DNA from: a virus
Strand: one strand, 5' to 3'
Virus record (IMG/VR): IMGVR_UViG_3300042987_003546
Coordinates: 1 to 23,989 of that record
Length of the DNA stretch: 23,989 nt
The notes under the pieces were generated by a model. That model had not been told where the DNA came from. It saw only the letters and a list, made by a program, of their open reading frames with translations, and searched no databases. This document shows positions 7,139-23,443 of this stretch, piece after piece. The translations under genes and the position numbers were made by a program. The stretch's first letter is position 1. Each line of letters opens with the position of its first letter.

Positions 7139-7165
7139 AAGCCCCGGACTAAACCGGGGCTTTTT
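7139..7165. terminator. Bidirectional intrinsic terminator between convergent units
   Basis: Perfect 9-bp stem AAGCCCCGG / CCGGGGCTT (7139-7147 with 7154-7162) around a six-base loop. The plus strand continues into five T residues; the minus strand has a shorter T3 tail. It lies between the plus-strand gene ending at 7080 and the minus-strand gene ending at 7175, exactly where a shared terminator is expected. Confidence 0.88.
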
Positions 7166-7174
7166 CGTTGAGTG

Positions 7175-7579
7175 TCAGTCGCCTTCACCGTTCAGAATCT
7201 GGTCAGCAGCAAGCCGCAATTCTTGAACATCACGGTCTGTGTGAGAAATGTCAACATGCACACCAGCCTTTGCGTGCCAATAGTTGACGGTTTCAATCGC
7301 GTGGCGAATACAGGCAAACCGCAAGTCGCGATAGTATTTGCCCCATTGATCGAACGGCATTCCATCGATTGTGACGGAGATTGATTCCCCGCGAATGATC
7401 GACCGCGCCTGAGAGATTGCACGCAACAATTTCAGATAGGCAGTATTAGCGGCGCTCAAGCCTTGCACAGTCAACTTGTGTGTCGCTCGCGATTTATACG
7501 CCAAGTCCTGCATCGCACAGTCGGCTTGATGGTCCCTAATTCGTTGATTGTCCAATGCAACGGCCAATGATTTCTTCAT
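7175..7579 (-). CDS. Hypothetical protein, 134 aa, last gene of the minus-strand island
   Basis: Starts at ATG 7579, overlapping the stop of the upstream gene as ATGA (7576-7579), so translation is probably coupled. Predicted mostly helical, with charged N- and C-terminal segments (KSLAVALDNQRIRDHQ; DRDVQELRLAADQI) and a central GMPFDQWGKYYRDLRF segment. No signal peptide or membrane segment. Family not recognised. Its stop lies just before the shared terminator at 7139. Confidence 0.68.
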   Translation of the reverse strand: MKKSLAVALDNQRIRDHQADCAMQDLAYKSRATHKLTVQGLSAANTAYLKLLRAISQARSIIRGESISVTIDGMPFDQWGKYYRDLRFACIRHAIETVNYWHAKAGVHVDISHTDRDVQELRLAADQILNGEGD

Positions 7580-8421: not shown

Positions 8422-8572
8422 AGGTCACCCCAGCGACAGCACGGCATTGGATGTTGATGTACTGCACGAGATCCCGCACGCATTCCGGGTTGGATGCGTC
8501 AAACTCGGGATCGTCGATGATGCTCACCAAAGTTACCAGCGTGCCGATTGCGTCAGTCGTGTCGATAGCCAT
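8414..8572 (-). CDS. Hypothetical protein, 52 aa, with duplicated leader
   Basis: Two adjacent ATGs exist (8575 and 8572). The one at 8572 is aligned with the start of the 8644-8856 gene in a shared 37-base leader and keeps the same eight-base spacing from AAGGGG, so it is preferred. A longer GTG start at 8647 would read through the hairpin at 8594-8616. The protein is acidic (IIDDPEFDASNPE) with a hydrophobic N-terminal third. Family not recognised. Confidence 0.6.
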   Translation of the reverse strand: MAIDTTDAIGTLVTLVSIIDDPEFDASNPECVRDLVQYINIQCRAVAGVTYE

Positions 8573-8606
8573 CATCGTATCCCCTTGAAAGTTGCCAGCC
8601 GTGGTT
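8570..8606 (-). repeat. Duplicated translation leader, copy 1
   Basis: 37 bases identical to 8854-8890 except one base next to the start codon. It covers the start codon, the AAGGGG ribosome site and about 20 bases further upstream, and precedes the 52-aa gene. Confidence 0.9.
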
Positions 8607-8643: not shown

Positions 8644-8856
8644 TCACAGTGGAAAGCGAGCTTTCGCAAACTTCATATCAGCCTCAGAAACGGTATCGTC
8701 AAGACCATCGCTTGACAGAGTATCCTGAATGAATGACTTCAAGTTTGCGAAGGCCTGCTCACCAGTCATCGCCTTGTCAACAAAAACGGTGTCAACGGCG
8801 TTTGAAATGCCTCGCTCAATTGCGTCCTGTCGCTGCTGACGTGTTCCTCGTTTCAT
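8644..8856 (-). CDS. Hypothetical protein, 70 aa
   Basis: Starts at ATG 8856 with AAGGGG eight bases upstream inside leader copy 2. Basic N-terminus (MKRGTRQQRQ), acidic middle (SSDGLDDTVSEADMKFAK), predicted helical. Family not recognised. Its leader is shared with the next gene downstream, although the two proteins themselves are not alike. Confidence 0.62.
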   Translation of the reverse strand: MKRGTRQQRQDAIERGISNAVDTVFVDKAMTGEQAFANLKSFIQDTLSSDGLDDTVSEADMKFAKARFPL

Positions 8857-8890
8857 CGTCGTATCCCCTTGAAAGTTGCCAGCCGTGGTT
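8854..8890 (-). repeat. Duplicated translation leader, copy 2
   Basis: Matches 8570-8606 at 36 of 37 bases. Precedes and includes the start codon of the 70-aa gene. Confidence 0.9.
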
Positions 8891-9534: not shown

Positions 9535-9553
9535 GGGGTAGCCACCCCAGTGA

Positions 9554-9576
9554 GGTATTGGAACAACCAAGCCGCG
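9554..9576 (+). repeat. Duplicated mini-hairpin element, copy A
   Basis: 23 bases identical to 12223-12245. It contains TTGG-AACAA-CCAA (9558-9570), a four-pair hairpin with a five-base loop, and ends with the 5' arm of the following terminator. Confidence 0.9.
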
Positions 9577-9602
9577 CACCTATCCGGGTTCGCGGCTTTT
9601 TT
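9569..9602 (+). terminator. Intrinsic terminator/attenuator before the head genes
   Basis: Stem AAGCCGCG (9569-9576) / CGCGGCTT (9591-9598), with an inner ACC/GGT pairing, then a T6 run (9597-9602). Only 20 bases separate it from the next start codon, so transcripts coming from upstream would have to pass it. Confidence 0.8.
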
Positions 9603-9621
9603 CGTTTGCGGAGTTCGCCAA

Positions 9622-10500
9622 ATGACACTGGTCTTCAACGGTCTCGACATGAGCGGGACGACAGCACACCGACCGACGAACGCCGAAATTGGCCAGCCCT
9701 ACTTCGATACCACTCTCAACACGCTGTTGGTATGGAACGGTTCGGCATGGCAAGACGCTGCTGACTCGACAGCTCCTGCAATCAATGGGGCGGCGGGAAC
9801 CACGGGCACAGGAACTACGGCGGGAACCGCTGGTGGTGCCGTGTCGCTGACAGCCGGGGCGGGCGGTGCCAAAACCGGCACGGGCGCGGCGGCTGGCGGG
9901 GCCGGTGGAGCAATCACCGAAACGGCTGGGAACGGTGGTAACACCGCATCGGCTGGCAGTGATGCTGGCGGGGCGGGCGGTGGTGTCACGCTGACTGCTG
10001 GAACCGGTGGCAACGCCACGGCAGGAACCGGAAACGGTGGGGCCGGTGGCAGTATCAACCTTGTGCCAGGGGCAGGCGGCACGTCCGCAGGCGGCACAGC
10101 GGGTGCCAATGGCGAAGTCAAGGTGAACGGCGTGGCAGGTCTGATGCAGGCCGACTTCGTTTATGGCGAAGCGACCCCGTTGGATGCGGCCTTTTTCATC
10201 GCCTGCCGAAACTATCGCGTCAAGTCGATCATCGTGCGACCGCTGGTCGTTGGGTCGGATGGTGGGGCTGTGACAGCCCAGATTCGCAAAGCTCCCAGCG
10301 GGACGGCGATGGCCTCGGGCACGGTCCTGCACTCGGGAAGTGCCGATCTGAAGGGCACGATCAACACGAATCAAAGTCTCACGCTCAGTTCCACGTCATC
10401 GGATCTCGACATCGCGTCAGGTGATGCCATCGGGATTGACGTGACAGGCGTCACAACTGCTGCTCGCGGGGTTATCTCCGTTCTGCTCAATCCACGGTAA
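9622..10500 (+). CDS. Gly-rich collagen/roll-like virion protein (putative head fibre)
   Basis: Start chosen at ATG 9622 with GGAG eight bases upstream; the longer GTG version from 9550 would translate the terminator hairpin. 292 aa. The N-terminus carries a segment typical of phage fibre and structural proteins (GQPYFDTTLNTLLVWNGSAW, about 27-46). Residues about 55-170 are Gly/Ala/Thr-rich, with GGAGG motifs recurring every 15-30 residues alternating with VSLTAG-, VTLTAG- and INLVPG-type strands, which suggests a repeating beta-roll or collagen-like shaft. The C-terminal 120 residues look like a compact beta domain, possibly a jelly roll. Its position directly before the scaffold and capsid genes suggests a head fibre or decoration protein rather than a tail fibre (inference). 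Confidence 0.65.
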   Translation: MTLVFNGLDMSGTTAHRPTNAEIGQPYFDTTLNTLLVWNGSAWQDAADSTAPAINGAAGTTGTGTTAGTAGGAVSLTAGAGGAKTGTGAAAGGAGGAITETAGNGGNTASAGSDAGGAGGGVTLTAGTGGNATAGTGNGGAGGSINLVPGAGGTSAGGTAGANGEVKVNGVAGLMQADFVYGEATPLDAAFFIACRNYRVKSIIVRPLVVGSDGGAVTAQIRKAPSGTAMASGTVLHSGSADLKGTINTNQSLTLSSTSSDLDIASGDAIGIDVTGVTTAARGVISVLLNPR

Positions 10501-10502
10501 TC

Positions 10503-12200
10503 ATGGTTGCAACGCTCACACCGACGAAGCCCGCTGCTCCGCTGCGAATTCAGCCTATGCTGAATGAACGGCAGGATGCGTTCGTGGAACGTGCGGACCG
10601 AGCGTTGCGAACGTCGATTCCAGACCGAAATTCCCGCATGTCGGCCATCGCGCAGGCATGGGGGGCCAGCGGCAACGAATCCAGGCTGCAACAGCGAGTC
10701 CGGGAAGCACTCGCAGCGGTGGGAGAATGTCCGGTCGATCAGCTTGATACCGTGTTTGTGACACGACCGAACAGGCCGATCTTTCCAGAGCATTCGACCA
10801 TCGGCCCTGATGGGTCTCCGCAGCGATACGACCGGGCAGCATTAGCGGCAATCGTGGATCGATGCAATCGGCGAATCCTCGATACCGGGGATCTGGCGGC
10901 AATGTCTGCCGGGCACACTCCGACGCAGGAGCAGCAAGCCAAGGGCATGCCGATGCCCGATCTGGTTGGTTTCACAGGCCCGTTTCGGTTGGGACTGATC
11001 GGCACGGATCGGCCACGATGGTGCATCTTCGGCGATGAACACATTTTTCGCGACGATTACGCGCGAGTGAAGAAAATGCCGCGTCGGTCTCCCGAAGTGT
11101 GGATGGAACCACGCATGGCAGACCGAGTGATGGACCCTATCGCAGTGTTGGGGGCCGAAACCCCACGCCTGGATACCGGGTTGTCTCGATTCTCCCGTGG
11201 GCGGCTGGATTCAGCCCGTTACACGAATGTCGCACGTTACAGCCTGGGAGCCATGCCGGGCGGTGCGAATACCTTTGTTCAAGACTATTCCGCTGGGGAT
11301 GACGATATGGACGATAACGCGATTCAGTCGCTTGTTGCGGCCGTGATTCAAGGGCTGCAGGCAACCCCCCAGTGGGCATGGATCACGGAACAGATGGGCC
11401 AGGGCGAAGGAAACCCGACGCCAATGGACGCAGATCAGGGGCCAACGCCATCGGCGGACGCAACGCCGGTGCCCGGGGCCACCGATCCGAATGCGGGCGG
11501 ACTTCCCACAGACATGGGGGGCGCTCCTGCTCCCGATGCGTCCGCCATGCCGGATGCCGGGGCACCAAGCCCAGCGCCGGACGCTGCGAGTCCCATGGAT
11601 GCAACGCCACCAGCGGCGGACAGCAGCCCGACCGACAACACAGGCGGCGGGGCCACGCCAGACGAACTGGCCAGCATGGGGGACGATGAAAAGGACGAAT
11701 ACAGTCGTCTGTCGTCTCCAGCCCATCAAGCGGGTTACATGGTGGCACGGCGACGGCACGCCAAACCAGCGGGAGCCATGCAGTACGCCAATCCGATCGA
11801 GAAGGCTCGCTATTCCCGCATGGAAGCGGAAAACGTCAGCCTGAAGGGCGAAGTGGCGGCACTGCGAGCCCAGCGGACGTTCCAGGAGCGATATTCGAAG
11901 TTGTCCGAACTCAGCCAGTTCCACGAATTCAACATCGAGGAAGAAGCACAGGAATGTGCGGGCATGAAGGACGATCAGTTCCATCGGCATTTGGAACGCA
12001 TCGCCACGCGGTACAGCCGACGCGACCCCAACGGCGGGATGCCAGTGTTGTTTACGCCACCATTGGACCAGCCAAAGCCAGACGACGAAAAGAAAGCCCG
12101 CTACAGCCGTCGGGCCGTCGAGATTGCATCGCGTTCGCCGGGCATGAGTGCCGACGAGGCATTCCAGCAAGCCAAAAAGGAGATCGATGCGGGGCATTGA
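10503..12200 (+). CDS. Head maturation protease/scaffold fusion (Mu gpI-like)
   Basis: 565 aa, ATG two bases after the previous stop; no strong ribosome site, so coupling is likely. Residues about 80-220 follow the layout of Mu gpI-type phage proteases: a YDRAALAAIVDRCN helix, SAGHT (135-139, His a candidate catalytic residue), then RRSPEVW (194-200) and IAVLGAETPRL. Residues 290-400 are a Pro/Ala/Asp-rich disordered linker. Residues about 430-565 are a charged coiled coil (MEAENVSLKGEVAALRAQ) and a helical tail, as expected of a scaffold. RYS or RYT occurs six times, possibly self-cleavage or capsid-binding sites. In related phages the protease half cuts the scaffold after procapsid assembly. 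Scaffold role is well supported by position and the coiled coil; protease activity is less certain because the catalytic residues cannot be fixed by eye. Confidence 0.7.
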   Translation: MVATLTPTKPAAPLRIQPMLNERQDAFVERADRALRTSIPDRNSRMSAIAQAWGASGNESRLQQRVREALAAVGECPVDQLDTVFVTRPNRPIFPEHSTIGPDGSPQRYDRAALAAIVDRCNRRILDTGDLAAMSAGHTPTQEQQAKGMPMPDLVGFTGPFRLGLIGTDRPRWCIFGDEHIFRDDYARVKKMPRRSPEVWMEPRMADRVMDPIAVLGAETPRLDTGLSRFSRGRLDSARYTNVARYSLGAMPGGANTFVQDYSAGDDDMDDNAIQSLVAAVIQGLQATPQWAWITEQMGQGEGNPTPMDADQGPTPSADATPVPGATDPNAGGLPTDMGGAPAPDASAMPDAGAPSPAPDAASPMDATPPAADSSPTDNTGGGATPDELASMGDDEKDEYSRLSSPAHQAGYMVARRRHAKPAGAMQYANPIEKARYSRMEAENVSLKGEVAALRAQRTFQERYSKLSELSQFHEFNIEEEAQECAGMKDDQFHRHLERIATRYSRRDPNGGMPVLFTPPLDQPKPDDEKKARYSRRAVEIASRSPGMSADEAFQQAKKEIDAGH

Positions 12201-12222
12201 TCGCATCGTAAATCGTTGTAGC

Positions 12223-12245
12223 GGTATTGGAACAACCAAGCCGCG
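12223..12245 (+). repeat. Duplicated mini-hairpin element, copy B
   Basis: 23 bases identical to 9554-9576, with TTGG-AACAA-CCAA at 12227-12239, in the 97-base gap between the scaffold and cement genes. Confidence 0.9.
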
Positions 12246-12283
12246 AGTTTGCCCAATCGGGTGAATTCGCGGCTTATTTTTTT
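12238..12283 (+). terminator. Intrinsic terminator/attenuator before the capsid genes
   Basis: Stem AAGCCGCGA (12238-12246) / TCGCGGCTT (12267-12275), an inner CCC/GGG pairing, then A and a T7 run (12277-12283). The ribosome site GAGGAG of the cement gene follows at once (12284-12289). Confidence 0.8.
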
Positions 12284-12297
12284 GAGGAGTGAGACAG

Positions 12298-12717
12298 ATG
12301 GATCAGCCCCAAGTCATGTATGCGAACGCCACCATTCTGGTTGCCAGCATCGTCATGATCGACACGTCGCGAAACAACGCGGTCATTCCCTGCACGAGCA
12401 ATGCCCGTGCGTTCGGCGTGGCTGCACTCGGAAGCCGTGAAGCCCCCATCCCCAGCGTGACTGCCGATCCGCCAGAAGCGGCACAGGCGGGGGATAACGT
12501 CGAAGTCTTCACTGCCGGTCGTGTCTGTCTCTGCCGTGCGGGTGGCACGATCACAGCGGGAGCCGAAATCAAGTCCGGTGGTTCGACAGGTGCAGGCATT
12601 GTCTGTGCGGAAACGACTGGCCTCAAGGAAAACTCTGTCGGGACTGCTCTCGAGGCGGCCAGCAGCGGCGAGTATTTCAAACTGCTCGTGATGCCGAAGA
12701 CGATCACAACCCCGTGA
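12298..12717 (+). CDS. Putative capsid cement/decoration protein (DUF2190-like)
   Basis: 139 aa from ATG 12298, with GAGGAG eight bases upstream. The protein is a string of short beta strands with a decoration-protein pattern: an N-terminal VIPCTSNARAFGVAAL segment, then GDNVEVFTAGRVCLCRAGG, ITAGAEIKSGG and VGTALEAASSGEYFKLLV. This order and the location immediately before the major capsid gene match DUF2190-type cement proteins, which bind the outer capsid surface and stabilise it. Three cysteines are present (residues about 33, 79 and 81). Assignment rests on pattern and context, not on a database search. Confidence 0.68.
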   Translation: MDQPQVMYANATILVASIVMIDTSRNNAVIPCTSNARAFGVAALGSREAPIPSVTADPPEAAQAGDNVEVFTAGRVCLCRAGGTITAGAEIKSGGSTGAGIVCAETTGLKENSVGTALEAASSGEYFKLLVMPKTITTP

Positions 12718-12876: not shown

Positions 12877-13929
12877 ATGGCTGCAGCAGCTACGTTCCCC
12901 AGTGGTAATAATACATTCGTGAAGGATCACGAGTCGTCTGGCAAGTTGACGATCAACTTCAGCCGCAATCCCAAGAAGTTCGCGCTGAACCGGTACATCC
13001 AGATCATCCCCGTCAAGAAGATGGCAGGGTACTACCTGGAAATGACCGTGGAAGAGGCCGGTCGCTTGTTGAACAGCGATGGGGCCGAATTCGACTGGCC
13101 CGATGGTGCCGATGCTCCAGCCGGGGCGGACGGTACTGAATCGTTCGTGTTCAAGGAATTCCGTACCAAGCGGAAAGCCTACGCGGTTCGCCTCGGCGAA
13201 TTAGCCGTGGAACAGGCTGGCTGGAACATCAGCGAAGCCCACCTGAACATCAAGGCCCAGCAAGCGATGACGAGTCGCACGCAGGACGTTGTGACCGCGT
13301 TGACGACCAGCGGGAACTACGCCAATTCGCACGTAAGTGCGGCGAGTGCCATTTCGGGCAACTCGGGCACGCTGGCTGCGTCTACCACAGCACGCCAGGA
13401 CATCAAGCGAGCCTTCAACACGATGGCACAGCAGATCATCGTTGACACCCTCGGCGCGGTGACAACCGACGATCTGCGTATCGTGATGGGACCAACGGAT
13501 GCGGCCCTGATTGCCCAGTGTCAAGAAATCGTTGACCACATCAAGGGGTCGCCGGATGCCTTGGCACAGGTCAAGGGCGAGATTCCAGGCACGAACACCC
13601 GATTCGGTCTGCCGGACAAACTGTACGGCTTCAAGATCGAAATCGAAGACGCGGTGAAGGTGACTTCCCGCAAGGGTGCGACAGCCGTAAAGACGTTCGT
13701 CTGGCCAAGCGGTTCTCTCGTCATGTGTTCGCAGGTCGGGGGACTGGTCGGTCAGGCCGACACGCCAAACTTCTCGACGGCATGTCTGTTCGTCTATGAA
13801 AAGGACGAAATGGCGGTTGAAAGCCAGCATGACGCATGGAACCGACGGCACGACACTCGCGTCGTGGACAATCGCCAAGCCAAGGTGGTTGCTCCTGCCA
13901 GCGGGTTCCTGTTGACCGGAATTGTCTGA
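12877..13929 (+). CDS. Major capsid protein (HK97-fold type)
   Basis: 350 aa. ATG 12877, with AAAGGG about 12 bases upstream. The N-terminus is short and lacks a long charged delta domain, consistent with a separate scaffold gene. The middle has the pattern of a capsid P domain: repeated helix DVVTALTTSGNY, a Ser/Ala/Gly-rich stretch, a helix DIKRAFNTMAQQII, then TTDDLRIVMGPTDAALI. The C-terminal third (GLPDKLYGFKIEIEDAV; GSLVMCSQVGG) is the usual strand-rich end with a conserved native-state region. Size, position after the scaffold and cement genes and before the connector all fit. The gene is flanked on both sides by unusually strong RNA hairpins. Confidence 0.85.
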   Translation: MAAAATFPSGNNTFVKDHESSGKLTINFSRNPKKFALNRYIQIIPVKKMAGYYLEMTVEEAGRLLNSDGAEFDWPDGADAPAGADGTESFVFKEFRTKRKAYAVRLGELAVEQAGWNISEAHLNIKAQQAMTSRTQDVVTALTTSGNYANSHVSAASAISGNSGTLAASTTARQDIKRAFNTMAQQIIVDTLGAVTTDDLRIVMGPTDAALIAQCQEIVDHIKGSPDALAQVKGEIPGTNTRFGLPDKLYGFKIEIEDAVKVTSRKGATAVKTFVWPSGSLVMCSQVGGLVGQADTPNFSTACLFVYEKDEMAVESQHDAWNRRHDTRVVDNRQAKVVAPASGFLLTGIV

Positions 13930-19301: not shown

Positions 19302-19345
19302 AGTCGAAAAGTTACTCTGTCTTGGTTCCGCTATCGAAACACTCG

Positions 19346-19386
19346 AGGCGTGTTCCCGTTCATCGCGACGGGGGCACGCCTTTTTT
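19346..19386 (+). terminator. Intrinsic terminator after the main tail genes
   Basis: 14-pair stem: AGGCGTG-TT-CCCGT with ACGGG-GG-CACGCCT (two G-U pairs in the middle), an eight-base loop and a T6 run (19381-19386). It lies 45 bases after the hub-like gene, yet 16 bases later a same-strand gene starts, so read-through or a new promoter is needed. Confidence 0.85.
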
Positions 19387-19401: not shown

Positions 19402-19902
19402 ATGACAACGGGTTACGGCACACCAACGACACAGATTACGGTCCTCGAAGCCGTGGTAAAGGTCTTGCGCGAGTCGATTCCCGCGTTCCAGGGGGAAAAC
19501 ACCTGTTTCCTGTCGATGGACCCCGAACCGTTGCATGAGGAACGGCAGACTTTGTTCGCCACGGTCTGTCCCATGGCGGGCCGGTTCGATGAAGAGATTG
19601 CGGTCGGATCGCACTATGCCAACGAACTGTCGGGCGTGCTGATCACGGTCTGGTCCGGCATGAAACTGGATCGACCGGGCGGCGACAAGATGATGATGAC
19701 CGAATCCGCACGGGGGCTGCTGAGTCTCAAGCGATTAATTCTCAAGGCTCTTAACGGGCTTGAACTGAAGGACAAAGAAGGCAACACCATCGTCTGCCGA
19801 CCGATGCGACCGTTAAACGCCGGGCATCCGCAGCGACGGGACGAAGAAAAGGGTTCTTTTTCACTGTCGTTCGCAACTGACTTTATTTGGGATCTGTCAT
19901 GA
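19402..19902 (+). CDS. Putative tail terminator/completion-like protein
   Basis: 166 aa from ATG 19402; no clear ribosome site. The layout resembles tail terminator proteins (lambda gpU type): an N-terminal helix (TVLEAVVKVLRESIP), a strand pair (FATVCPMAGRFDEEI; SGVLITVWSGMKLD), a central helix (RGLLSLKRLILKALNG) and a terminal strand ending in DFIWDLS. Such genes normally lie before the tube gene; here it lies after the hub gene and behind a terminator, so the assignment is tentative. It overlaps the next gene as ATGA. Confidence 0.45.
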   Translation: MTTGYGTPTTQITVLEAVVKVLRESIPAFQGENTCFLSMDPEPLHEERQTLFATVCPMAGRFDEEIAVGSHYANELSGVLITVWSGMKLDRPGGDKMMMTESARGLLSLKRLILKALNGLELKDKEGNTIVCRPMRPLNAGHPQRRDEEKGSFSLSFATDFIWDLS

Positions 19903-20418: not shown

Positions 20419-22131
20419 ATGATTCAATTCAAGGGCGTTGATCTGCTCCTGGAAGATCCCACGGGCAGAGCAGCCGCATACGTGCAACGGTATCTGGGAA
20501 TGCCGGAATCCCTGATCAATGCCCCCGCACGGACGATCGACAGCAAATCGCGAGTACAGCGCCCCCAGTGGCCAGAGGGGCCGAAGCTGCGACCGAATCA
20601 GCTTTACATGCCATCTGGTGCGACACGGTGGGGGCAGTTCATCGGTCTGGCTACGACAGCCCAAAAGAACGCGATTCTCGCGGCCATGTCGTCACGAAGC
20701 TCCACAGGAACCCTGACGATCAGCCTGGAGGATTCGCCCAATGTTGCGGTTGCGTCCTGCACAAACGCAGACGGGACGTTTAACCTGCAAGGGGCCATCT
20801 CGGTCACGATGTACTTGTTGCCACCGCAGCCAGTCAGTCAGGCCGCATCGTCAGCAGAAAATGACTTGTGGATTCTGCCGATGGTGGACGAACGGTTCTG
20901 GTGGCAGACCGCAATGTTTGTGTCAGTGGCGGAAACATGGGCCGATCTGCTCGACGAGTTCAACACGTCACTGGGGATCAGCCTGACACGCGATGCGTCG
21001 GCACCGATTGACAGCGACTACGGCATTCCTGACGCCTGTTTTTTCCGAAACGGGGCCATCAATACGGCAGCGGCGGTCGATCTGTACTGTTGGTCCACGA
21101 ATCAGCGACTGGTCCCAAAAGACATCAGCGCCGGAACGTGGATGCTCAGGTCATCCAGGCCCGATGCTAGTTCGTCATCGTCGAGTAGTTCGAGCAGTTC
21201 ATCGTCAAGTTCATCCAGCAGCGCGGCGACAGTGGATGCGGACTGCCTGTACACGGGCCAGCGTGATGCACAGTTGCTGACACCGAATTCCGGTTCAATG
21301 TCGGCCGGCGGGGAATGCACGTCCACTCACAGCGGTGACGTTCCGAAAACGATCCAGTTCCACTTCACGAACGATTCGGCCACGGAACTGCTGGTACACA
21401 TCGCCGGGACTGATCCAGACTATGCCGACGGCGGGATTCTCGACGTAATGTGTCCGGCAACGTCAACAGGCTCAAATGACAGCGATTTGGAAGCGATGGC
21501 CGACAAATGGGCCAACGACTTCTGGACGTGGTCCAAGTGGCGTTTCTCGTGGTCTTTCAATCGTCTGCTCAACTGGCACATGATTGGCTACGAAGATTAC
21601 GTGCTGATCGATCTGTCTCGGCACAAACGGGGCTACAACGCTCGCACGGCGGTCAAGGCACTGCCCCCAACCGGCTGGGGAATGGACGCTGTACCGTTGC
21701 AACTGTCCACAGGCGGTAATACCTGTGCTGGCAGCGGAAACGGGTCAACAACGTCCCCATGTGGTTGCTGTGACTGCAAGGATTGTCTCCCACCAGACAA
21801 ATCCACGATCGGCAGCGGAACGTGTAGCACCTGTGCCAACGGGGCTGCGGGGTCATATACGTTCAATCCTGGGACTTTCACGGCATACCCGGCATTGGGC
21901 GGATTACAGACTGTAACGCACGTCTCAGGATGCGTTTGGCAGTCGGGACTGATCGCAGTCACGGCAGCAGCATGGGCAGCGAGTCGATACTACTACGTGA
22001 ACGATTACGTGTTGCACGACAGTGGCAAACAATACAAGTGCGTCACGGCGGGAACGTCCGGATCAACGGGCCCCACGGGAACCGGGTCCGGGATCACTGA
22101 TGGGTCTGTCACATGGGACTACTCACCATGA
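20419..22131 (+). CDS. Multi-domain adhesin-like tail protein with Ser18 linker and C-terminal carbohydrate-binding-like domain
   Basis: 570 aa; ATG 20419 with GAGG about eight bases upstream. Parts: residues 1-140, a beta-rich domain (RWGQFIGLATTAQKNAILAAM; TLTISLEDS) resembling tail-tip components; 150-250, a second globular part; 251-268, eighteen serines in a row; 275-450, a Trp/Asp-rich domain (WANDFWTWSKWRFSWSF); 450-490, a Cys-rich stretch (CGCCDCKDC and CSTC); and about 520-570, a domain of the type WAASRYYYVNDYVLHDSGK...YKCVTAGTSGS...TDGSVTWDYSP, known from tail fibre and carbohydrate-binding modules of the chitin-binding kind. Suggested role: host surface binding. It overlaps the next gene by ATGA. 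Confidence 0.65.
   Translation: MIQFKGVDLLLEDPTGRAAAYVQRYLGMPESLINAPARTIDSKSRVQRPQWPEGPKLRPNQLYMPSGATRWGQFIGLATTAQKNAILAAMSSRSSTGTLTISLEDSPNVAVASCTNADGTFNLQGAISVTMYLLPPQPVSQAASSAENDLWILPMVDERFWWQTAMFVSVAETWADLLDEFNTSLGISLTRDASAPIDSDYGIPDACFFRNGAINTAAAVDLYCWSTNQRLVPKDISAGTWMLRSSRPDASSSSSSSSSSSSSSSSSSAATVDADCLYTGQRDAQLLTPNSGSMSAGGECTSTHSGDVPKTIQFHFTNDSATELLVHIAGTDPDYADGGILDVMCPATSTGSNDSDLEAMADKWANDFWTWSKWRFSWSFNRLLNWHMIGYEDYVLIDLSRHKRGYNARTAVKALPPTGWGMDAVPLQLSTGGNTCAGSGNGSTTSPCGCCDCKDCLPPDKSTIGSGTCSTCANGAAGSYTFNPGTFTAYPALGGLQTVTHVSGCVWQSGLIAVTAAAWAASRYYYVNDYVLHDSGKQYKCVTAGTSGSTGPTGTGSGITDGSVTWDYSP
21169..21222 (+). repeat. Poly-serine tract, 18 codons
   Basis: Eighteen consecutive Ser codons (5 AGT, 5 TCG, 4 TCA, 3 AGC, 1 TCC), acting as a flexible linker between two globular parts of the adhesin-like protein. 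Confidence 0.95.
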
Positions 22132-22862: not shown

Positions 22863-23443
22863 CAAACAACTACCGATACAGCTTGGATGAAAGCACTTCC
22901 CCACCGCAAATTGTTGTGGAGTTCGTCAGCGGTACGGACGTGATGAACATTGGATCACGTCCAGTCAAGTACGTGGCCAGCAAGTTCAACTCATGTCGGT
23001 GTGCGAGTAAGTTTTCTCTGGTCACAGGGGAAACGCTCCTGCCACCAGCGGACATCAGTTGCAACCTGTGCCTGGAACCGATTGCGGGTGACTCCAGTAG
23101 TTCATCGTCATCATCGTCGAGTAGCAGCAGTTCAAGTTCGTCGTCATCCAGCAGCAGTTCGTCGAGTTCGAGTTCGTCAAGCTCATCGTCGTCATCAAGT
23201 TCGTCATCGTCGAGCAGTTCCAGTTCCAGCAGCAGTTCCAGTTCGTCGAGTTCCAGTAGTTCGTCGTCGTCAAGCTCCAGCGGCTGTACGGGAACGTGCG
23301 GTCAGTTCACATGGACCAGTGGGGAGTGGGTCGAGGGAGATCCACCGTTTCCCTACTGTACCTGTACATGCTACGGGCCCGCGTTCATGGGGATGTTTGA
23401 AGGACAGACGGCATCAGGTTCGTGCCAGAGTACCCCACCATGA
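22859..23443 (+). CDS. Cys-rich tail-tip protein with 63-residue poly-Ser stalk, paralogue 2
   Basis: 194 aa from ATG 22859 (ATGA overlap). Residues 1-78 are a paralogue of the preceding N-terminal module: FVSGTDVMN (22-30), P-V-K-Y, C46-x-C48 and C68-x2-C71. Residues 79-141 are 63 serines without interruption, about a third of the protein. Residues 142-194 are a compact Cys-rich head (CTGTCGQF; YCTCTC; a final Cys near the end). The design, two small Cys-stabilised heads joined by a long hydrophilic stalk, fits an extended adhesin. The glycosyltransferase gene starts inside its stop codon. Confidence 0.65.
   Translation: MTNNYRYSLDESTSPPQIVVEFVSGTDVMNIGSRPVKYVASKFNSCRCASKFSLVTGETLLPPADISCNLCLEPIAGDSSSSSSSSSSSSSSSSSSSSSSSSSSSSSSSSSSSSSSSSSSSSSSSSSSSSSSSSSSSSSSSGCTGTCGQFTWTSGEWVEGDPPFPYCTCTCYGPAFMGMFEGQTASGSCQSTPP
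23093..23281 (+). repeat. Poly-serine tract, 63 codons
   Basis: 63 consecutive Ser codons: 19 TCG, 16 AGT, 11 TCA, 10 AGC, 7 TCC, no TCT. The DNA is degenerate, not a simple tandem repeat. Confidence 0.95.

Follow-up and report, generated by a model that had tools for sequence, protein, structure and literature searches.

Terminator-overlapping hairpins ahead of phage virion genes: candidate antiterminators linked to DUF2292/YezD-like proteins

Three hairpin-terminator units in a phage fragment

The DNA considered here (the window) is a stretch of 23,989 nucleotides, positions 1 to 23,989 of the IMG/VR virus record IMGVR_UViG_3300042987_003546. It carries two identical 23-base copies of GGTATTGGAACAACCAAGCCGCG, at 9554-9576 and 12223-12245. 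Each contains the hairpin TTGG-AACAA-CCAA (9558-9570 and 12227-12239). The last two bases of its 3' arm, AA, belong at the same time to an intrinsic terminator, as part of the 5' arm of the stem (9569-9598 and 12238-12275). An earlier note, made from the letters alone, had described the repeats, the hairpins and their overlap with terminators, and had added that the terminator loops and T runs differ between the copies; each of these points was confirmed. Directly 3' of both terminators there is an ATG (9622 and 12298) preceded by a Shine-Dalgarno-like stretch. An exact repeat of 23 bases is far beyond chance: when the window was shuffled 60 times with dinucleotides preserved, the longest repeat was 16 bases. 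The window also contains one longer repeat, of 32 exact bases, which is unrelated to the hairpin 23-mers.

One aspect goes beyond the earlier note. The GG that flanks each hairpin can form pairs with a CC that lies within the terminator arm, and the 5' arm of terminator 1 includes the 3' outer strand of element 1. In addition, the note had counted two gated points, and there are three (Table 1). Element 3 has another stem (UCGA/UCGA) than elements 1 and 2, but the loop type and the UA/G internal loop are alike. The model R1 matched these three elements in the window, the next best match having an E value of 1.2, and a terminator at 7139, behind a gene end, has no element on it.

Table 1. Elements, terminators and the genes behind them in the window
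Feature	Position	Strand	Details
Element 1, GAGG-UA-UUGG-AACAA-CCAA-G-CCGC	9552-9575	+	two outer pairs, GG/CC; R1 29.4 bits, E 8.4e-6; descriptor
Terminator 1 and T run	9569-9602	+	stem 9569-9598; -18.5 kcal/mol alone
Virion structural protein-like gene behind element 1	9622-10500	+	phrog_20787, E 3e-11, residues 8-49 only
Element 2, GCGG-UA-UUGG-AACAA-CCAA-G-CCGC	12221-12244	+	four outer pairs; R1 31.1 bits, E 2.8e-6; descriptor
Terminator 2 and T run	12238-12283	+	stem 12238-12275, 17 pairs; -29.4 kcal/mol
Small head protein gene behind element 2	12298-12717	+	followed by major head protein, 12877-13929; phrog_673 E 8.1e-12, phrog_1005 E 9.3e-9
Element 3, CCGC-UA-UCGA-AACAC-UCGA-G-GCGU	19328-19351	+	three outer pairs; R1 22.8 bits, E 5.4e-4; descriptor
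Terminator 3 and T run	19345-19386	+	stem 19345-19382, 16 pairs; -28.0 kcal/mol
Gene behind element 3, 166 aa	19402-19902	+	without PHROG match

Folded alone, the hairpins of elements 1 to 3 reach -5.7, -10.1 and -7.7 kcal/mol, and before the 3' arm of the terminator exists the hairpin is the predicted fold. The terminators are more stable. Therefore termination would be the default, with readthrough expected where some factor keeps the hairpin in place.

Three other features of the window are recorded here as separate observations. There is a strong minus-strand terminator after the small head gene (12785-12752), and the related contig L308 has one too (8935, minus strand). A 37-base repeat, 97% identical, lies over the regions in which two small genes on the minus strand start (8570-8606 and 8854-8890). 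Serine-rich low-complexity repeats occur within two late genes (21169-21222 and 23093-23280).

Architecture and compensatory evolution of the hairpin

The element has a defined architecture: an outer helix of 2-7 bp, a bulged A, an inner helix of 4 bp and an A-rich loop of 4-5 nt. The internal loop has two bases on the 5' side and one on the 3' side (UA/G, UG/G, CA/G or GA/A), and often folds as one extra pair plus the bulged A. The outer flanks pair as GG/CC, GC/GC or CC/GG. The inner helix covaries, taking the forms UUGG/CCAA, CUGG/CCAG, AUGG/CCAU, UCGG/CCGA, CCGG/CCGG, UUGA/UCAA, UUCG/CGAA and UCGA/UCGA. Across 51 distinct elements 90.0% of the cells are paired, against 62.8% after shuffling, and there are 128 double-change cells against a shuffled mean of 44.8, a score reached by none of 500 shuffles. 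All eight pairs have compensatory changes, and slid versions of the alignment leave only 16-55% of cells paired. The alignment rows were picked by a descriptor that demands pairing, so the kinds of compensation outweigh the pairing percentage; outer compensation is already present in loci chosen by core sequence alone. The 3' outer strand lies inside the terminator arm in all descriptor hits, as the descriptor demands, and also in the sequence-selected loci. Hairpin and terminator both need this strand, the terminator as its 5' arm, so the two folds compete.

What if the conserved stretch acts as a double-stranded DNA operator, or simply precedes a well-made terminator? TTGG-N5-CCAA is an inverted repeat, and A-rich bases are frequent upstream of terminators. 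However, a DNA operator would retain its bases and a plain terminator needs no upstream hairpin, whereas here the stem varies freely with pairing kept while the asymmetric bulge and the loop are conserved. The compensatory changes largely refute this explanation, and we hold it to be very improbable.

Some details define the alignment (A3). Nine descriptor hits judged to be chance were removed beforehand and duplicates were merged. Two rows (L202 and L204) are one column out of register; both stay in the alignment and contribute in part as mismatches. Five loci with core and terminator (L086, L089, L093, L099 and L152) lie outside A3. R1 found no match in the records of four of them, L086, L093, L099 and L152 (G020-G023), and it matches L090 weakly. 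On reversed sequences the descriptor gave 4 hits in the run with the window and the protein-seeded loci, and 10 in the run with the Bacilli loci. R1 hits a second time in G009 and G558 and once in the control G025; as none of these hits leads into a terminator, they were put down to chance, and L268, L310 and L311 likewise appear to be chance hits.

Close relatives show what is kept and what is not. The major head protein has relatives encoded on two contigs, L308 (76% identical) and L309 (59%). In L308 elements precede the same two genes (5622, corresponding to window 9558, and 8396, corresponding to 12227). Both stems are UGAG/CUCG, and AACAA, UA/G and the GG/CC outer pairs are retained; two further elements lie at 19540 and at 1949-1972, the latter with one inner mismatch. 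L309 has a degenerate copy at 7473 and none before the small head gene. The earlier note had named loss or free mutation in related phages as evidence against its proposal, and on the whole the relatives do not show this: L308 keeps both elements with paired stem changes, while L309 has one degenerate copy and lacks the other. It had also held that the short hairpin is kept exactly. This is so inside this genome; across relatives it is the structure, the loop and the bulge that persist instead. Elements of one genome share their internal loop even where their stems differ (UA/G in all three window elements, UG/G twice in G007, GA/A twice in G018), which suggests recognition via loop and bulge.

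The element is also found in unrelated phages. The first 20 bases of the 23-mer occur in five other IMG/VR contigs, and in all five the run leads into a terminator with a different stem and an identical overlap, AAGCC..GGCTT. Among the matches listed, broader patterns added four more loci (L008, L011, L013 and L014, the first two being one sequence), and at least 16 further loci were judged real, with a strong terminator ahead of an ORF; the remaining listed matches are mostly coding-sequence-like and fit chance. Behind the element lie a head maturation protease (L003, L006), the small and then the large terminase subunit (L004), a portal gene (L007), and a scaffold-like protein (below cut-off) followed by a P22-type coat (L014). 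The genes behind it in L005, L011 and L013 gave no name. The window hairpins appear to belong to an RNA switch class, widespread and unannotated, that allows transcription past a stop signal.

Cultured phages and bacterial chromosomes were reached by other routes. With the L142 and L145 variants as queries, BLAST reached one phage of Anoxybacillus, A403, and two satellite phages of Streptococcus, and the element is present in the Streptococcus satellite phages Javan328 and Javan368. The window's own 31-mer gave only short chance matches to cultured phages, and BLAST hits in Acinetobacter, Paenibacillus, Escherichia and Lactobacillus are short matches that were not counted as elements. A search of bacterial genomes for the exact core with a T run returned what we judge to be chance matches in 53 of 54 loci. 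Only one looks real (L052:1675, on a Velamenicoccus chromosome), where the element lies ahead of a conjugation operon with TraE, TrbI and TraC matches; the one DUF2292 gene of that genome is located away from it. Separately, L145 has a type II hammerhead ribozyme at 11173-11238 (minus strand), over the Rfam gathering score.

A linked small protein in phages and sulfur operons

A small ORF of about 40-60 aa, of the type FYGKITISFENGKI..KEE, ends just upstream of many elements. PF10055 (DUF2292) is matched at E<=1 in 9 of 27 element records and in none of 14 control contigs, although the curated cut-off is passed in only one of the nine phage records. All nine matches are on the same strand as the element and just upstream of one. 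A profile built from 12 linked proteins also finds L005, which is not among the 12 (E 6.7e-7), and a later protein profile finds L096 and the Bacilli locus L265, itself located by R1. DUF3954-type proteins with a similar ending lie upstream in A403, L133 and L145, with a look-alike in L179. Pfam searches of ten linked small proteins returned DUF2292, DUF3954 or nothing relevant, and no CAT RNA-binding domain. The predicted fold of the linked protein is a helix plus a beta hairpin (mean pLDDT 86); searches of solved structures gave nothing by sequence and no significant PDB match by fold. In the reverse test, a protein-only search recovered nine new loci, from about six distinct phages, and the element lies downstream in all nine (seven by descriptor, two from the T-run listing).

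The same pairing is found in bacteria. DUF2292 is present in 58 of 151 Bacilli genomes, and in 29 newly fetched loci, a part of those fetched from the 58 carriers, the descriptor places an element downstream of it 21 times. The typical Bacilli form is GCY-GA-4bp-ACAA-4bp-A-GGC, fused to a terminator. R1 hits at E<=0.01 number 32 and fall in 25 of these 151 genomes; DUF2292 is present in 22 of the 25. Eighteen of the hits sit 19-138 nt downstream of a DUF2292 match, seven of them (G079, G133, G159, G166, G170, G199 and G203) at loci without a training row. The same threshold gave two hits in 148 genomes of the Bacteroidota control, which includes one genome with DUF2292.

What do these bacterial elements precede? 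Behind those adjoining yezD are genes for CysH, sulfate-binding proteins, SsuA-family proteins, SsuE and a PLP enzyme of methionine biosynthesis. Elements far from yezD precede an alkanesulfonate monooxygenase, SsuA-family and TauD proteins and a PHO4-type permease and NAMPT-like protein (these four below cut-off), and sulfate-binding-like proteins (judged by eye); some such trans sites have no obvious sulfur gene. Two loci have tandem elements and terminators before a sulfate-binding-like or NAMPT-like gene (L274:1177 and 1407; L276:2395 and 2652).

Perhaps DUF2292 is only a co-regulated passenger, and what the hairpin responds to is a different ligand or a protein of the host. No DUF2292-like gene is seen adjoining the element in L090, L120, L093 and L152, none is recognisable within the 24-kb window fragment, which is an incomplete genome, and SAM riboswitches lie ahead of yezD in 5 of 10 loci. 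However, protein and element recur together whether virion genes or unrelated sulfur genes lie downstream, and seeds chosen by the protein alone recover the element every time. DUF2292 also lies upstream of the terminator and is therefore not gated by it in cis. We consider the passenger explanation improbable. In L309, a relative of the window phage, a weak DUF2292-like candidate gene lies ahead of the element, and in L308 a 65-aa ORF, the end of which is 24 nt short of the element at 1949-1972, is a further candidate.

In Planctomycetota and Pseudomonadota an R1 hairpin lies just downstream of yezD in 12 of 20 loci (E<=1, whole search), and the outer helix is also retained in some Gram-negative loci (L291, L292). 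No terminator follows the hairpin in the stretches examined, which excludes antitermination of an intrinsic terminator as the output there. The hairpin sometimes occurs twice before the next gene in these loci (L282-L301). Does a processive antitermination complex of the nut, put or LoaP kind perhaps load at the hairpin instead and modify polymerase, so that later terminators are ignored too? Retention of the hairpin behind Gram-negative yezD without a terminator would fit, as would the length of late operons. Nevertheless, the terminator arm doubles as the lower strand of the hairpin in Bacilli and phages, which loading would not need, and the window elements stand at each terminator, not once. 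A loading site is an unlikely explanation, if somewhat less so than a passenger role for the protein.

A proposed late switch and its relation to known systems

The reading we prefer, and consider probable, is that the elements serve as antiterminators: each, lying in the leader RNA of a phage late unit, would respond to a small DUF2292/YezD-like protein that holds it. Nascent RNA would form the hairpin first, its 3' outer strand being the 5' arm of the downstream terminator. Unaided, the more stable terminator would displace the hairpin and transcription would halt ahead of the virion genes. A DUF2292/YezD-like protein that grips the loop and bulge would hold the hairpin, and polymerase would pass. 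Many phages encode the protein just upstream of the element, and for this reason it may act as a late switch. The protein-hairpin pair would also control sulfur-assimilation operons of Bacilli, in cis and in trans. We infer that the protein binds the RNA, that the effect is readthrough and that such a factor acts on this phage. The most likely history is that a sulfur-regulon antiterminator, with a DUF2292 protein binding the hairpin, has been reused as a phage late switch. The earlier suggestion of a recognition hairpin joined to a terminator in virion-gene leaders, plausibly gated by a protein, is supported.

A broader version is also worth stating, more tentatively: DUF2292/YezD might be a new family of RNA-binding antiterminators that runs sulfur regulons across phyla and has repeatedly been adopted by phages and satellites as a late switch. 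We think this possible, though on balance doubtful. If it were true, host and phage copies could cross-talk and late expression might sense the sulfur state of the host. Two Streptococcus satellite phages (L191, L192) have a DUF2292-like gene and the element together, possibly a route to follow the late programme of a helper.

The proposal gives an uncharacterised family of small proteins a testable function. It also posits one antitermination system common to sulfur regulons and the late operons of phages and satellites, would explain the timing of virion gene expression in diverse uncultivated phages, and would provide an easily tested switch in which the RNA has about 24 nt and the protein about 40 residues. 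At the gathering score, Rfam 15 has no match over the element in the window, 12 loci and 10 bacterial loci. Searches of the open-access literature turned up neither a function for DUF2292 or YezD nor a phage element of this kind, and the available passages on yezD/DUF2292 report expression changes, or deletion without phenotype.

The earlier note had likened the hairpin to boxB or put, and there is some likeness: all are short RNA elements in phage antitermination, and the boxB loop also has five bases. Lambda boxB/nut works with an N-type arginine-rich protein and a boxA element, and HK022 put is processive and needs no phage protein. The present element shares a strand with its terminator, making the two mutually exclusive, sits at each gated terminator and is linked to a DUF2292-like protein, so the assignment to that type is not supported. 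The RAT antiterminators of the BglG/SacY/LicT systems are similar in another way. There, a weak imperfect hairpin of about 30 nt with two internal loops is bound by a CAT-PRD protein. As here, the hairpin overlaps a terminator arm, and, as we also propose here, a dedicated protein holds it to give readthrough. The element differs in being about 24 nt with one bulge, and in its link to DUF2292, not CAT-PRD.

ANTAR targets consist of two hairpins with six-base loops, whereas here there is a single hairpin with a loop of 4-5 nt in 51 of 51 elements. What the two have in common is an antiterminator hairpin that excludes a terminator, stabilised by protein in the passages on ANTAR/EutV (PMC8934654, PMC3369931) and, by our proposal, here. 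LoaP leader hairpins are likewise described, in the passages available, as RNA elements in a leader linked to antitermination (PMC12691694), which is also proposed here; LoaP, however, is there a NusG paralogue on the elongation complex, and no such gene is implicated in the present case.

Two further comparisons concern sulfur metabolism. One attenuator is described, in the available passages, as common to a sulfonate ABC transport operon and an unknown gene (PMC2965389). It could be the element described here. The second comparison is with OscA of Pseudomonas, which we take to be a DUF2292 protein, and L291-L297 likewise have DUF2292 ahead of an sbp-like gene. In the passages available OscA is a small protein whose function is unknown and whose gene shares a transcript with sbp, the oscA-sbp unit; inactivating it is associated with sensitivity to chromate and with the response to sulphur starvation (PMC2996968). 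Those passages differ from the present case in describing no RNA element. Set beside these systems, we rate the pairing of hairpin and DUF2292/YezD-like protein as a new class among protein-dependent antiterminators.
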